Of a DNA stretch of 44,092 bases, positions 16,619 through 20,530 are shown in pieces. This stretch comes from a virus. Both the position numbers and the translations under genes were made by a program. Numbering within the stretch: position 1 is the stretch's first letter; every line of letters begins with the position of its first letter. Location of the stretch: positions 1 to 44,092 of the IMG/VR virus record IMGVR_UViG_3300031227_000106. One strand, written 5' to 3'. Under the pieces are notes generated by a model. That model worked only from the letters and a program-made list of their open reading frames with translations. It was not told where the DNA came from and ran no database searches.

Positions 16619-17269
16619 TTATAGCTTGGATATAATAGTGTACTTCTGCCCTATGTCATCACAGGTTGCCTTCATTTTGTCAGTAAGAACGTCAGGTGGG
16701 ACACGTACTATCAGATCATGCGTCGAGTAGTCAATATCCACCGTACCGCCAGCGTCTTCGATAACCTTTAGGACTTGATAGAACTCCAAGTCGGGATTAC
16801 TATCCGCTACAATTGCTCCGGCTGGCATATCTACCCAGCGAAAAACATGGAACCCCGTTAAACCATCTTGATTACGCCTCGGGATACCGGGGTTGTTTTG
16901 CTGTTTATACCACTGCCTAAAACACTCAAGATCCATTAGCGTCCACTTTGCTAGGTTTACTTCATCTTCATCAGAAAAGCCATAGAAAAACAGATCACCC
17001 CATCCTTCCTTTATTTTATCCAGTTCCGTTGCGGTGCCATTTCTAAGCCATGAACGAATGGTAAATTCGTCACCGTAATTTTCTATATATCCAAACTGCC
17101 TCACCCTACATGCAATTCGCGTCTCATCTTGCTTTAATACAATAAGATCGGTATTGCGTTTCATATCCTCGATCATAGGTGCCTCATTAACTAAGTAGGC
17201 TCCGATGATCTTCTTTATTTCAGGTAAGAAACGATCCGACCAGTTCTTGTTCTGCTTCCAGTCTGTCAT
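16619..17269 (-). CDS. PD-(D/E)xK-like protein of methyltransferase cassette 1
   Basis: From ATG 17269 (ATGA overlap with the methyltransferase, GAGG seven bases before) this is a 216-aa soluble protein. Residues about 36-110 contain TDLIVL...RIACRVR, then DEFTIRS, ELDKIKEGWGDLFFYGF and KWTLMDLECF. This succession resembles restriction-endonuclease-like phage proteins. The order GxxF(Y)xYG...KW(x)LMD is shared with the protein of cassette 2. The usual (E/Q)xK position reads CRVR, so catalysis by this copy is doubtful. It may be a nuclease-fold DNA-binding partner of the MT-A70 enzyme encoded just upstream. Confidence 0.6.
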   Translation of the reverse strand: MTDWKQNKNWSDRFLPEIKKIIGAYLVNEAPMIEDMKRNTDLIVLKQDETRIACRVRQFGYIENYGDEFTIRSWLRNGTATELDKIKEGWGDLFFYGFSDEDEVNLAKWTLMDLECFRQWYKQQNNPGIPRRNQDGLTGFHVFRWVDMPAGAIVADSNPDLEFYQVLKVIEDAGGTVDIDYSTHDLIVRVPPDVLTDKMKATCDDIGQKYTIISKL

Positions 17270-18279
17270 TGCGCCGCCTCGTTCCCCCACGATTTAAAGC
17301 CGTCAATGGGTCGGCGGTTGAACATGTCGATACGAGGACCGGCCGTAACCCGCTTAATTATTTCATAAAACTCCTGGGGCTTTTCTGAATGTTTTCCTCG
17401 AGGAGCACTAAAACAAACTGGGAATGCCTTAGTGTCAATAAACGTCGGCGTTCCGTATCGTGCGTATAGGCAGAACTCACAGTTGTACTGCGGTAAACCC
17501 ACAGGCTGAAACCCACCCGGCTTGTGCCACACCATTGTGCATACATAGCGAAAGTCCCACCTTGGTAGCAACCGTAGTGCCATAGGTAAGAACTTATGGG
17601 TAGTCCACAGAAATAGGTGGCAGTCGTCGGCCGTTGGTAGTTCCATTACCGCCAACTCATCTTCTGTCATCGTCGGGTAGTCTATAACCGAAGTCTGCTC
17701 GGGTGCACAGTCCCGCTCGATCTTCTCCATCGGCCAAGGTGGATCAATGACAATCACACCGTACTCGCCATCAGGTGCCTCAACGTCGCCTAGCTCCTTG
17801 TTGGCTGCTATCTGCTGTTCTCGCTTGTGTTTGGTATATTCCCTGATAAGGCCAGTTTGGGTAAGTTCACCGTCAGCCTCCTTGGTTTCCTTCACCCACT
17901 TCTCAAATACCTTTTTCGGTACTTCGGCTTCTTGTTGCCATCGGGCAGATTGACGCTTGTTGATATCGTAATCGGCAAGGGTTTTAACCGGTGCCGTCGT
18001 GGCACCGGTAGATACTTTGCGGGGGTTACCACCCCTCGCCTTATCCATTGCCTTGAGCCACTTGCCTAATACCCGTTCAGATCGCCTGACAATATCCTGT
18101 GCTGCCAATATCGCATCGTTGCCAATATCACGCCTGGATTTGGCAAACTTAATAGCCGCCTCCCCCTGGTTCTTTATTAGTATCACTTCTTCTATGGTAT
18201 TGGCTTCAGCTAGTGCGTGACTTGCCCTTGTGATCAGTGCAAGCTGCTGCTCGTTGGGGGTGGGCGTCTTCTTGGCCAC
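17266..18279 (-). CDS. MT-A70-family adenine DNA methyltransferase (cassette 1)
   Basis: This 337-aa protein transfers a methyl group from SAM to adenine N6. The catalytic DPPW motif is at residues 179-182 within YGVIVIDPPWP, followed by LFLWTTHKFLP and the MT-A70 C-terminal elements. Residues 1-160 are a charged helical extension that may bind DNA. The start is GTG at 18279 with GGAGG six bases ahead. It follows the structured leader RNA at 18295-18394 with its own promoter, and overlaps the nuclease-like gene downstream. In a phage this probably protects DNA from restriction or marks it for regulation. Confidence 0.85.
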   Translation of the reverse strand: MAKKTPTPNEQQLALITRASHALAEANTIEEVILIKNQGEAAIKFAKSRRDIGNDAILAAQDIVRRSERVLGKWLKAMDKARGGNPRKVSTGATTAPVKTLADYDINKRQSARWQQEAEVPKKVFEKWVKETKEADGELTQTGLIREYTKHKREQQIAANKELGDVEAPDGEYGVIVIDPPWPMEKIERDCAPEQTSVIDYPTMTEDELAVMELPTADDCHLFLWTTHKFLPMALRLLPRWDFRYVCTMVWHKPGGFQPVGLPQYNCEFCLYARYGTPTFIDTKAFPVCFSAPRGKHSEKPQEFYEIIKRVTAGPRIDMFNRRPIDGFKSWGNEAAQ

Positions 18280-18294
18280 AGTCAGCCTCCGTGC

Positions 18295-18394
18295 AAAAAA
18301 ACAACCACGCCGGTTACGATGCTAAACTAGAGCAGAAGCCCTGAGAATTGCCCGGCGTGGTTGTCTGTTTTTGTATTTATCGTTTAGCATCGTA
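18295..18394 (-). ncRNA. Interleaved-helix (pseudoknot-order) terminator leader RNA, copy 1
   Basis: The ~100-nt 5' leader of the MT-A70 gene contains two perfect 13-bp helices. Strand B (18382-18394) pairs with B' (18315-18327), and strand A (18352-18364) with A' (18301-18313). They are arranged B-A-B'-A', i.e. in pseudoknot order. Helix A ends in seven U (18301-18295), so it is an intrinsic terminator seven bases before the GGAGG ribosome-binding site. A small hairpin (18329-18342, AGGGC TTCT GCTCT with one G-U) lies between A and B'. The linker between B and A is A-rich (AAATACAAA). B' abuts A' with one base between, allowing stacking. The structure is predicted from pairing only. Confidence 0.8.
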
Positions 18395-18399
18395 TTAGC

Positions 18400-18427
18400 A
18401 GTATAGTCTTCTGGTGGGCCGTGTAAA
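18400..18427 (-). promoter_or_regulatory. Promoter of methyltransferase cassette 1
   Basis: TTTACA (18427-18422) and TATACT (18405-18400) are separated by 16 bases on the minus strand, each one base from consensus. The 34-nt block 18397-18430 is identical to 20500-20533 ahead of cassette 2. The expected start point (about 18393-18395) coincides with the first base of leader strand B. Confidence 0.8.
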
Positions 18428-18519
18428 GGTTAGTTATTACAGGCTCTCCGCGATATCTTCGATACTCACCGCTGTGTAATCTGATCCAGCCTGGTGCCAT
18501 TATTACTATGCGTCCGTGC

Positions 18520-19137
18520 TTAAAGTCCAGCCTCGGTGGCGGTTGGGGTACAGTCAAAAAGTGTCATCTGAGCGTCTTTTTCGGCCGGGGCGGTTTCATG
18601 GGTGGGTATCTTTACCCACCTATAGTCCGTGATAAAACATGACTCCAACTTCTTGACAGGGATTGCGTAGAAACTTGCTCTACCGTGTAAGTTGTTCTGT
18701 CGTATTTTTCCAAGTTTATCAATCCCGCCGGCCCTCTCCACCAGTATCTTATATTTGGCTATGTCCATCAGCAACCATTTTTCAAATGCGGTTTCGTCAG
18801 CGTTAGCCCAACCATAAAAATAAAGCTGGGCACCCAACTTGAACCATTCCCCTGGTGATTCATACGGTGTACCCACCCCGTTCATGTACTCCTGTGTAAA
18901 GTCCATATAACACATCGCATCGTGCCTGCGATATTTTTCTTGTAAGGTAATCCATTGCTGTGACGGTAGGTTAATAAGTGAATCTATACCAAACTCTTTA
19001 TCTAAAATATGAACCCGCACACCCTCCCCTCGTAGATCCTCTAGGTCGCAACCGGGGAACACAGCCTGGTATATTCTCAATGCCGCCGGTTTCATTTTCT
19101 GTTGAAACTTTACCGTATTAAGGTTTTTGAATTCCAT
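18520..19137 (-). CDS. PD-(D/E)xK nuclease-like protein of methyltransferase cassette 2
   Basis: This 205-aa protein has a recognisable PD-(D/E)xK core: Asp52 in FGIDSL, then QWITLQEKYR with Gln66-Glu67-Lys68, followed by DFTQEY, GEWFKLGAQLYFYGW and KWLLMD. The Q-E-K triplet is a typical catalytic (D/E)xK line of restriction and repair nucleases. Its start (ATG 19137) lies within the end of the ParB-methyltransferase gene, overlapping by 20 bases, so the two are coupled like restriction-modification partners. The fold call rests on motif reading by eye, and substrate specificity is unknown. Confidence 0.65.
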   Translation of the reverse strand: MEFKNLNTVKFQQKMKPAALRIYQAVFPGCDLEDLRGEGVRVHILDKEFGIDSLINLPSQQWITLQEKYRRHDAMCYMDFTQEYMNGVGTPYESPGEWFKLGAQLYFYGWANADETAFEKWLLMDIAKYKILVERAGGIDKLGKIRQNNLHGRASFYAIPVKKLESCFITDYRWVKIPTHETAPAEKDAQMTLFDCTPTATEAGL

Positions 19138-20383
19138 AAGCCTTAATCCTCCGTCGCGCTACAGTGGCTATTGTTTTATCTTTTTCAATCCCATGAAATT
19201 GTCTACCGAGCTGTAAAACAGCTATCCCCGTTGTCCCCGATCCGCAAAATGGATCTATAACTAAGTCTCCACGTTGGGTTGTGGCGTTCACGAGCCACCG
19301 CATTACAGATACGGGTTTCTGTGCGGGATGTACCTTACGGTCGGCGTCGTTGAAATTTGACTGGGGGACGGCCGCGACATGGCAGTCAAAATCATTTAGC
19401 CCATCGCCCCATTCTGATCCACCAACCCCGATCTGCTTTTTGCTGTCGGTATGGCGATAGAAAAAGATTGGTTCCCAGGTCTGCTTAAAGCCCATGCGGC
19501 TTTGCGGTTTTTTATTGTTTGCGTAATGCCAAACCATCAACTGCTGAAAGGTGTAATTAGTTAGACATTCATCGAACCACGTTTTGGCACCCCATAAGAA
19601 CCGCTGTGAAAAGAACGACAGGATTAGTTCTGCGCCGCACTTATTCCATCGCGTAAGCCAGTCTCGGGTCATGGACTCCAAGTCGTTAGGCTCCCACTCC
19701 TCCTTGAGAATACCGTAAGGCGGATCTGTGATAAGTGCATTGCACTGAACCACAGATTGGCTGGTGGTGACGGTCCACTCCCCGCTGTTGCTTGCCTCTT
19801 TTACGAGTGTCTCTTCTTTCTTAACTTGTGCATCTTTGCGGGCCTGCTTCTTGGCGTCCTTGAGTGTCAATTCGCCTTTCGCCATAGCCTCAAATGCGTC
19901 AGGGTTTTCTTTTTGGATCTTTTTGCCATCGGAAATGTATTGGCGGTTGACGTTAACTAGCTTGGCGGCATGGTCGCGTGACTTGCCAGCATCGGTTGTG
20001 CAACTTTTTGCACAACCGATCTTCTTATTTGCTGTCTTGCGGTCGCCGCCTGATTCTCTCTGACGTTCCTTAGCCTCCTTCTCCAACACCAGCAGCAACT
20101 TTACCCCCACACACAGCCTCTGTTCTACGGTCAAATGACGCCTAACACCATTCACCGACCAGACATACTCCGCCGGCGTTAGGTCTCCTATGTCCACCTC
20201 TACTACGTCGGGCTCAATTTTGAGTTCCTTACATGCTCGATATCGGTGTCGCCCGTCGATCAGTGCCCCCTGGTAGGTTTCTATGGGGACAACCTGCCCA
20301 CGGGCCTCAATGTCAGCCTTGAGTGTCTCGTATTCGTCCGGTAGCATTTCCGGTATCGCCTTGGCGGCGGGGTGTGTCTTCAT
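19118..20383 (-). CDS. ParB-domain adenine DNA methyltransferase (cassette 2)
   Basis: This 421-aa protein from ATG 20383 (AAAGG six bases before; GTG 20389 is an alternative) has a ParB/Srx-like N-terminal domain with IDGRHRYRAC at residues 42-51. Helix-turn-helix-like helices follow at about 80-190. The C-terminal N6-adenine methyltransferase domain carries TDPPYG at 219-224 and a SAM-binding DPFCGSGTTG near residue 380. The order DPPY before the SAM motif marks the beta class. It is the first gene after leader RNA copy 2 and is coupled to the nuclease-like gene. Likely roles are self-protection against host restriction and autoregulation through the ParB part. Confidence 0.9.
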   Translation of the reverse strand: MKTHPAAKAIPEMLPDEYETLKADIEARGQVVPIETYQGALIDGRHRYRACKELKIEPDVVEVDIGDLTPAEYVWSVNGVRRHLTVEQRLCVGVKLLLVLEKEAKERQRESGGDRKTANKKIGCAKSCTTDAGKSRDHAAKLVNVNRQYISDGKKIQKENPDAFEAMAKGELTLKDAKKQARKDAQVKKEETLVKEASNSGEWTVTTSQSVVQCNALITDPPYGILKEEWEPNDLESMTRDWLTRWNKCGAELILSFFSQRFLWGAKTWFDECLTNYTFQQLMVWHYANNKKPQSRMGFKQTWEPIFFYRHTDSKKQIGVGGSEWGDGLNDFDCHVAAVPQSNFNDADRKVHPAQKPVSVMRWLVNATTQRGDLVIDPFCGSGTTGIAVLQLGRQFHGIEKDKTIATVARRRIKAYGIQKP

Positions 20384-20399
20384 GGCCACCCTTTCAGAT

Positions 20400-20497
20400 A
20401 AAAAAACAACCGCGCCGGTTATGATGACAAACTAGGGGAGAAATCCCCGAGAATTTCCCGGCACGGTTGAGGTTTGTATTTGTTATTTGTCATCATT
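20400..20497 (-). ncRNA. Interleaved-helix (pseudoknot-order) terminator leader RNA, copy 2
   Basis: The leader of the ParB-methyltransferase gene repeats the B-A-B'-A' plan of copy 1. B (20486-20496) pairs with B' (20421-20431) in 11 bp, extendable by one G-U. A (20458-20469) pairs with A' (20407-20418) in 12 bp with one U-G pair, and seven U follow (20406-20400). That U-G pair exists only on the minus-strand RNA; the plus strand would have C-A. The internal hairpin is GGGGA TTTC TCCCC. Stem B differs from copy 1 at several positions on both arms and stays paired, while AAATACAAA, AATTCTC, CTAGTTT and AACCGGCG are conserved. Confidence 0.8.
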
Positions 20498-20502
20498 TCA
20501 GC

Positions 20503-20530
20503 AGTATAGTCTTCTGGTGGGCCGTGTAAA
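20503..20530 (-). promoter_or_regulatory. Promoter of methyltransferase cassette 2
   Basis: TTTACA (20530-20525), 16 bases, TATACT (20508-20503) on the minus strand lie inside the 34-nt block identical to cassette 1. It lies six bases downstream of the stop of the SSB-like gene, so this cassette can be expressed separately from the recombination operon. Confidence 0.8.

Follow-up and report, generated by a model that had tools for sequence, protein, structure and literature searches.

A leader RNA in which two long helices interleave, with its first strand at the predicted transcript start, occurs twice ahead of methyltransferase genes in an uncultured virus, and the same plan recurs with unrelated sequence in other uncultured viruses. 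These elements are very probably cis-acting structured leader RNAs. On about even odds, they represent a class of phage leader RNA that has not been described before, whose common features are its topology and its anchoring at the start site and not its sequence. In such a class the transcript 5' end would be threaded into the loop of a gene-proximal hairpin, in either a two-helix form (type I) or a three-helix ABCABC form (type II), and would thereby gate early DNA-modification, nuclease and recombination genes. The element is neither a two-copy curiosity nor methyltransferase-specific.

Structure and promoters of the two window copies

The window, i.e., the whole stretch of DNA analyzed here (44,092 bp), is the IMG/VR virus record IMGVR_UViG_3300031227_000106. 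Nearly all of its genes lie on the minus strand, and the products include terminase, portal, protease, capsid, DnaB, P0004 (SSB-like, DUF669) and P0005 (a Sak4-like recombinase). Both leaders are also on the minus strand, to which all window positions below refer unless otherwise noted. Copy 1 precedes P0001, an MT-A70 family adenine methyltransferase of 337 aa (17266..18279) with the Shine-Dalgarno sequence GGAGG at 18286..18290, and copy 2 precedes P0002 (19118..20389), which combines a ParB-like N-terminus with an N6_N4 DNA methyltransferase and starts at GTG 20389 or ATG 20383. Positions 19991-20020, within the P0002 coding region, contain a perfect palindrome of 13 bp, which is followed by a T-rich tail when read on the plus strand.

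Each copy consists of strand B, an A/C-rich linker (L1), strand A, a short pyrimidine-rich junction, hairpin C, strand B', 1-2 bases, strand A', U7, a Shine-Dalgarno sequence and a start codon, the helix order in both being the interleaved B-A-B'-A'. In copy 1, strand B (18382..18394) begins at the predicted +1 and is followed by the linker GATAAATACAAAAACAG (18365..18381), which includes the conserved AAATACAAA, strand A (18352..18364), the junction GCAATTCTC with hairpin C (AGGGC-TTCT-GCTCT; 18329..18351), strand B' (18315..18327), and a terminator-like end (18295..18313) composed of A' (18313-18301) and U7. The corresponding parts of copy 2 are strand B (20485..20496), the linker AACAAATACAAACCT (20470..20484), strand A (20458..20469), the junction GAAATTCTC with hairpin C (GGGGA-TTTC-TCCCC; 20435..20457), strand B' (20421..20432), and A' (20418-20407) with U7 (20406-20400), together 20400..20418. 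Both helices of copy 1 are fully paired (13/13 for B-B' and for A-A'), and those of copy 2 have 12 pairs each, including one U-G per helix, terminal in B-B'. The first-pass annotation had described the interleaved leaders, the seven U just before the ribosome-binding site, a third hairpin kept with different bases, and two conserved unpaired stretches, AAATACAAA and AATTCTC; the positions, strand and pairings were confirmed, and U7, hairpin C and both stretches are present in each copy. The letters of L1 and the junction are conserved between the copies.

A feature absent from that earlier account is the block TTTACACGGCCCACCAGAAGACTATACTGCT, which is identical at 31/31 nt ahead of both copies (18397-18427 and 20500-20530), the RNA stems having diverged. 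It contains a 10/12 match to sigma-70 promoters with a 16-nt spacer. The promoter of copy 1 (18400..18427) has its -35 hexamer TTTACA at 18427-18422 and its -10 hexamer TATACT at 18405-18400, and that of copy 2 (20503..20530) has the same hexamers at 20530-20525 and 20508-20503. Since a sigma-70-like promoter lies directly ahead of each copy, the +1, which here and below is a prediction from hexamers, falls at strand B. Gene conversion or a common promoter-binding factor could possibly account for the identity of the two promoters. The opposite was observed in a pair of orthologous leaders from two other records (L259 and L342), where the RNA is kept and the promoter spacer has diverged.

The helices of the two copies differ in four base pairs through double (compensatory) changes, of which three are in B and one is in A, and in two more through one-sided changes from C-G to U-G. 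These changes bear out the earlier suggestions that stem B differs in sequence and stays paired, and that a change to U-G in stem A, seen among the 12 A-A' pairs of copy 2, points to an RNA. When the partner strand was slid by 1-3 columns, no double change was left, and 22-49% of the cells were paired vs 98% unslid. A letter-shuffle control on the copy pair gave 36/500, a weak test with only two sequences. With A held fixed, the flanks and loop were dinucleotide-shuffled 2000 times, and the strength of B-B' was never matched in either copy; the folding z-scores of the nested part were -5.5 and -4.0.

These changes also bear on a reading at the DNA level, in which the inverted repeats would be operators for a looping repressor joined to a plain terminator. 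The position of B at the predicted +1, a frequent repressor site, would suit it. However, B differs between copies of the same genome and is still paired, both in the window and among all three elements of another record (L242), and the one-sided changes go to G-U, which fits RNA and not a common DNA-binding protein, leaving this reading scarcely credible.

Distribution, independent checks and two subtypes

Relatives of P0001 from IMG/VR and GTDB were scanned for interleaved stems, and the same plan with unrelated sequence was found directly ahead of the methyltransferase gene, clearly in L038, L078 and L131 and more weakly in L023, L048 and L008; L038 has a second element ahead of an HNH endonuclease gene. 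The first, looser scanners returned hundreds of chance hits in repeats and GC-rich coding DNA. A second scanner with added requirements (a good promoter, strand B close to the start, and a Shine-Dalgarno sequence with start codon) was run on a further 1.6 Mb of IMG/VR DNA. It revealed three elements in L242 (ahead of MT-A70, HNH and O-like replication initiator genes), two in L259 (Sak4 and a small ORF), and one each in L315 (Sak4), L320 (HNH), L241 (MT-A70) and L161 (MT-A70). In addition, a protein search identified in L342 a Sak4 83% identical to that of L259, whose leader has the same fold.

The firm set (window x2, L038 x2, L078, L131, L161, L241, L242 x3, L259 x2, L315, L320 and L342) comprises 16 elements in 11 records, i.e., the window and ten other uncultured viruses, all metagenomic fragments; the count depends on curation, and it was the search for the structure itself that brought in most members. 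Adding the weaker L008, L023, L048 and L327 gives 20 elements in 14 records, L008 and L048 not being counted as firm because their helix B is near or at chance (p = 0.35 and 0.06). Among the products of the genes behind the elements are methyltransferases (MT-A70 and N6/N4), HNH endonucleases, Sak4 recombinases and a replication initiator. Two or three copies per genome are present in the window, L038, L242 and L259. The first-pass annotation had expected further hits upstream of methyltransferases with additional compensatory changes; such hits exist, but the link to methyltransferases is not specific, as HNH, Sak4 and replication initiator genes are preceded by the same plan.

Several candidates were inspected and left out, namely L046 (capsid gene), L253, L195/L200/L230, L027, L064 and L118. 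Among them, L253 (6020-6136, +) has a different pseudoknot plan ahead of a small membrane-like ORF, with B-B' as the stem of a hairpin and the hairpin loop paired to a strand that follows B'. The related records L195, L200 and L230 carry two to three direct repeats of TTGCCCACA roughly 130 nt upstream of an MT-A70 gene, which together with matching inverted repeats form a long hairpin, and in L027 (3187-3300) and L028 a 40-bp near-perfect hairpin with TAGAGCGTGTGCGCGTTCGGCGCTTTGTCC lies upstream of an MT-A70 gene, at a distance of about 150-260 nt. Two observations concern retained loci. In L008 (3200-3240), the inverted repeat CGGGCCGT...ACGGCCCG overlaps the -35 of the leader promoter, and ACGGCCCGCCAG resembles ACGGCCCACCAG of the window promoter. 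In L131 (1821-1919), a 32-codon ORF behind the leader overlaps the GTG start of the methyltransferase gene, to which it is possibly translationally coupled.

Direct sequence searches with the promoter block or the leader returned nothing from IMG/VR, cultured phages or plasmids, and eight cultured phages (302 kb) whose Sak4 or methyltransferase genes are related also had no element. Most homologous methyltransferase genes have no element. In Planctomycetota, a related methyltransferase was present in only 4 of 294 genomes, with no host link.

Support from features outside the search itself came from a strict type I descriptor, which required neither promoter nor gene and was run on 2.33 Mb of non-redundant DNA. 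Its top ranks were the second element of L259 (L259b), L320, L315 and both window copies, followed by simple repeats. In each of these five, promoter and start codon are both in place, a combination found at random positions with a frequency of 0.0008. Hairpin C, also outside the scan criteria, has a combined p of 3e-8. Strand B begins 4-9 nt past the -10 hexamer, i.e., at +1 or within about three bases, in 14/17 elements vs 20/104 hits in reversed-DNA controls (p = 7e-7); these controls give some high-scoring hits too, mostly repeats.

Changes between homologous leaders point the same way. Between the Sak4 orthologs L259a and L342, the latter found via its protein, B is unchanged and A' has two changes that keep pairing (U-G to U-A and G-C to G-U). 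The Sak4 leaders L259a and L315 retain a bulged C in B, with swaps in the pairs around it. A MAFFT alignment of the type I members misaligns the stems, and pairs were counted on hand-defined segments and on the window pair. Over all helices, G-U outnumbers A-C by 19 to 1, a biased count because the scanner allowed G-U, so only changes between homologous leaders were used.

Another reading is a stand-alone trans-acting small RNA, with its own promoter, a stable body and a terminator, to which the gene behind would be a mere neighbor. The promoter-to-U-tract unit is indeed complete in the window, about 100 nt long and paired at both ends. On the other hand, a Shine-Dalgarno sequence and start codon always follow right behind, even when the descriptor did not require them, and the sequences are wholly different even within one phage, which makes a common target unlikely. 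A trans-acting role is thus distinctly unlikely, and control of the gene behind is preferred.

The elements fall into two subtypes. Type I (window x2, L259 x2, L342, L315 and L320, with the looser L008, L241 and L131) has helices B and A of 11-14 bp each, an L1 of 12-19 nt rich in A and C, hairpin C of 4-6 bp after a short pyrimidine-rich junction, and an L3 of 0-2 nt. All core type I elements have a GC-rich stem followed by a U-rich tail. In type II (L078, L242 x3, L038 x2 and possibly L161), A and B' follow each other almost without a gap, hairpin C is absent, and a predicted third helix D lies between L1 and L3, giving the order B-D-A-B'-D'-A'. Taken alone, helix D has p = 0.001 in L242a, 0.003 in L242c, 0.006 in L078, 0.02-0.04 in L242b, L038a and L038b, and 0.08 in L161. 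The U tract is often poor or missing in type II; it is missing in L242a and L161, and also in the type I-like L131. The type II order falls in the ABCABC or 'pseudotrefoil' class, which comprised 51 sequences in a survey of pseudoknot topologies (PMC3390330), and differs in its setting, namely phage leaders anchored at a predicted start site.

Comparison with known regulatory RNAs

No Rfam family was matched at the gathering score in the window or in 14 element-bearing loci. At loose thresholds, L001/L002 gave nothing but sub-threshold chance hits (E<=5), and five loci had no hit with E<=2. This agrees with the first-pass annotation, which did not recognize SAM-II, SAM-V, SAH or preQ1 types. 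Across records, topology and geometry are common and almost no sequence is, L1 being merely loosely A/C-rich. For this reason a two-sequence covariance model of the kind proposed earlier would not have succeeded, and a topology descriptor was required. An HDV-like ribozyme has the order P1-P2-P3-P1'-P2', a 7-bp P1, and a J4/2 strand with the catalytic C. Although this order matches type I, such a ribozyme was rejected, as B is 11-14 bp long and the 0-2 nt of L3 leave no J4/2.

A cis-regulatory RNA such as an attenuating riboswitch, with SAM as a candidate ligand, had been the earlier proposal. The structured leader acting in cis, with its crossing helices and terminator-like end, has strong support, but the riboswitch part does not. 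A small-molecule switch such as one for SAM could be imagined from the methyltransferase genes, from a B-A-B'-A' order near the leader 5' end that resembles the H-type SAM-II, SAM-V and preQ1 riboswitches, and from the L1 and junction letters shared by the window copies. A riboswitch needs a conserved binding core, and since the elements share almost no sequence across records, a SAM or other small-molecule riboswitch is not supported; the phage helices also reach 9-14 bp, and nucleases and recombinases are among the genes behind the elements. This explanation is therefore very improbable, and with it SAM as a ligand.

Phages offer closer parallels. The putL and putR sites of HK022 lie directly behind promoters and act in cis, and each put RNA is a pair of ordinary stem-loops of about 70 nt with shared sequence and no terminator (PMC9378689). 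A put-like role, in which the leader would bind its own polymerase and make it ignore downstream terminators, is suggested by the position directly behind early-type promoters and by two or three copies per genome, as for putL/putR. Here, however, the helices interleave, no sequence is common between phages, and type I ends in a terminator-like U tract; the elements were accordingly not assigned to put RNA, whose two stem-loops are adjacent, and antitermination of this kind is improbable.

The leaders of gene 32 in T4 and RB69 form a 5'-terminal pseudoknot in which sequence is relaxed and structure strict (PMC535899). The likeness lies in a 5' pseudoknot ahead of the Shine-Dalgarno sequence of a phage DNA-metabolism gene, and in a structure that persists as the sequence drifts. 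The gene 32 pseudoknot differs in being about 28 nt long, without hairpin C or U tract, and the genes here are methyltransferases, HNH endonucleases and Sak4. By this analogy, the main rival of the preferred reading would be 5' protection or protein-controlled translation: the helices would bury the 5'-triphosphate and leave the ribosome-binding site clear, giving a stable mRNA that is well translated or protein-repressed, and the U tract would be incidental. B lies at the predicted +1 in most elements, in almost every element the Shine-Dalgarno sequence follows A' at a distance between a few and about 20 nt, and SSB-like and Sak4 genes adjoin elements in the window and relatives; the main evidence is that some type II members lack a U tract. 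Against this, core type I elements carry a GC-rich stem with a direct U tract that an mRNA stabilizer would not need, and the genes behind the elements are mostly not SSB genes. Such a protective or translational leader is possible but unlikely.

A possible attenuation mechanism and its meaning

The preferred reading is that the leader begins at its own sigma-70-type promoter and controls the gene behind it, most likely as a transcription attenuator, a proposal for which we consider the case for and against about level. As in attenuators and the lambda PR'-tR' arrangement, a promoter is followed by a leader of about 100 nt, a GC-rich stem with a U tract, and a gene, and an alternative fold forms earlier. 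The stem and U tract were found with a promoter in the window and all core type I elements and not in L242a, L161 and L131, so termination is not the common denominator of the whole set. Two differences from that type are that the competing helix crosses the terminator arms without overlapping them, and that its 5' arm is the transcript 5' end.

In prefix folding of 12 elements, the minimum up to the end of B' contained B-B' in all 12 (12/13 to full pairs), suggesting that B-B' should form first during transcription. When A' was added, the minimum under nested folding switched to A-A' with no B-B' left, again in 12/12, which suggests that one helix may exclude the other. Strand B would thus be the transcript 5' end, and B-B' would pair once B' emerges, closing A inside its loop. 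The emergence of A' would then allow A-A' and the U tract to make a terminator-like hairpin, with one of two outcomes: B-B' is displaced, or the hairpin stacks on B-B' in a pseudoknot bridged by a stretched, unstructured, A/C-rich L1. The type I geometry fits such a stack, as B' and A' are contiguous and the RNA 5' end lies at the nick, and by our estimate an L1 of 12-19 nt is just long enough to span both helices. The foot of A-A' must close for termination, and in the stack it would close last and under strain, which would make the element a natural attenuator with read-through dependent on B-B'. Closure of this foot would decide between a terminated RNA of about 100 nt and read-through into the methyltransferase gene, and the ratio might be set by a phage antiterminator, by an SSB-type protein on L1, or by polymerase speed. 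A further idea, upstream sequestration of B, by which the leader would respond only to its own promoter, was rejected because 90 nt of upstream sequence folded with B gave no consistent anti-B.

If the reading is correct, these elements would constitute a regulatory RNA family whose members share their geometry and the position of the 5' end but almost no sequence, and would expose a blind spot of alignment-dependent RNA discovery. Such freedom of sequence hides the elements from homology and covariance searches, so they are possibly far commoner than seen here. They would also provide natural examples of the rare ABCABC pseudoknot order, and a simple rule for the timing of phage methyltransferase, HNH and Sak4 genes expressed from strong host-type promoters.
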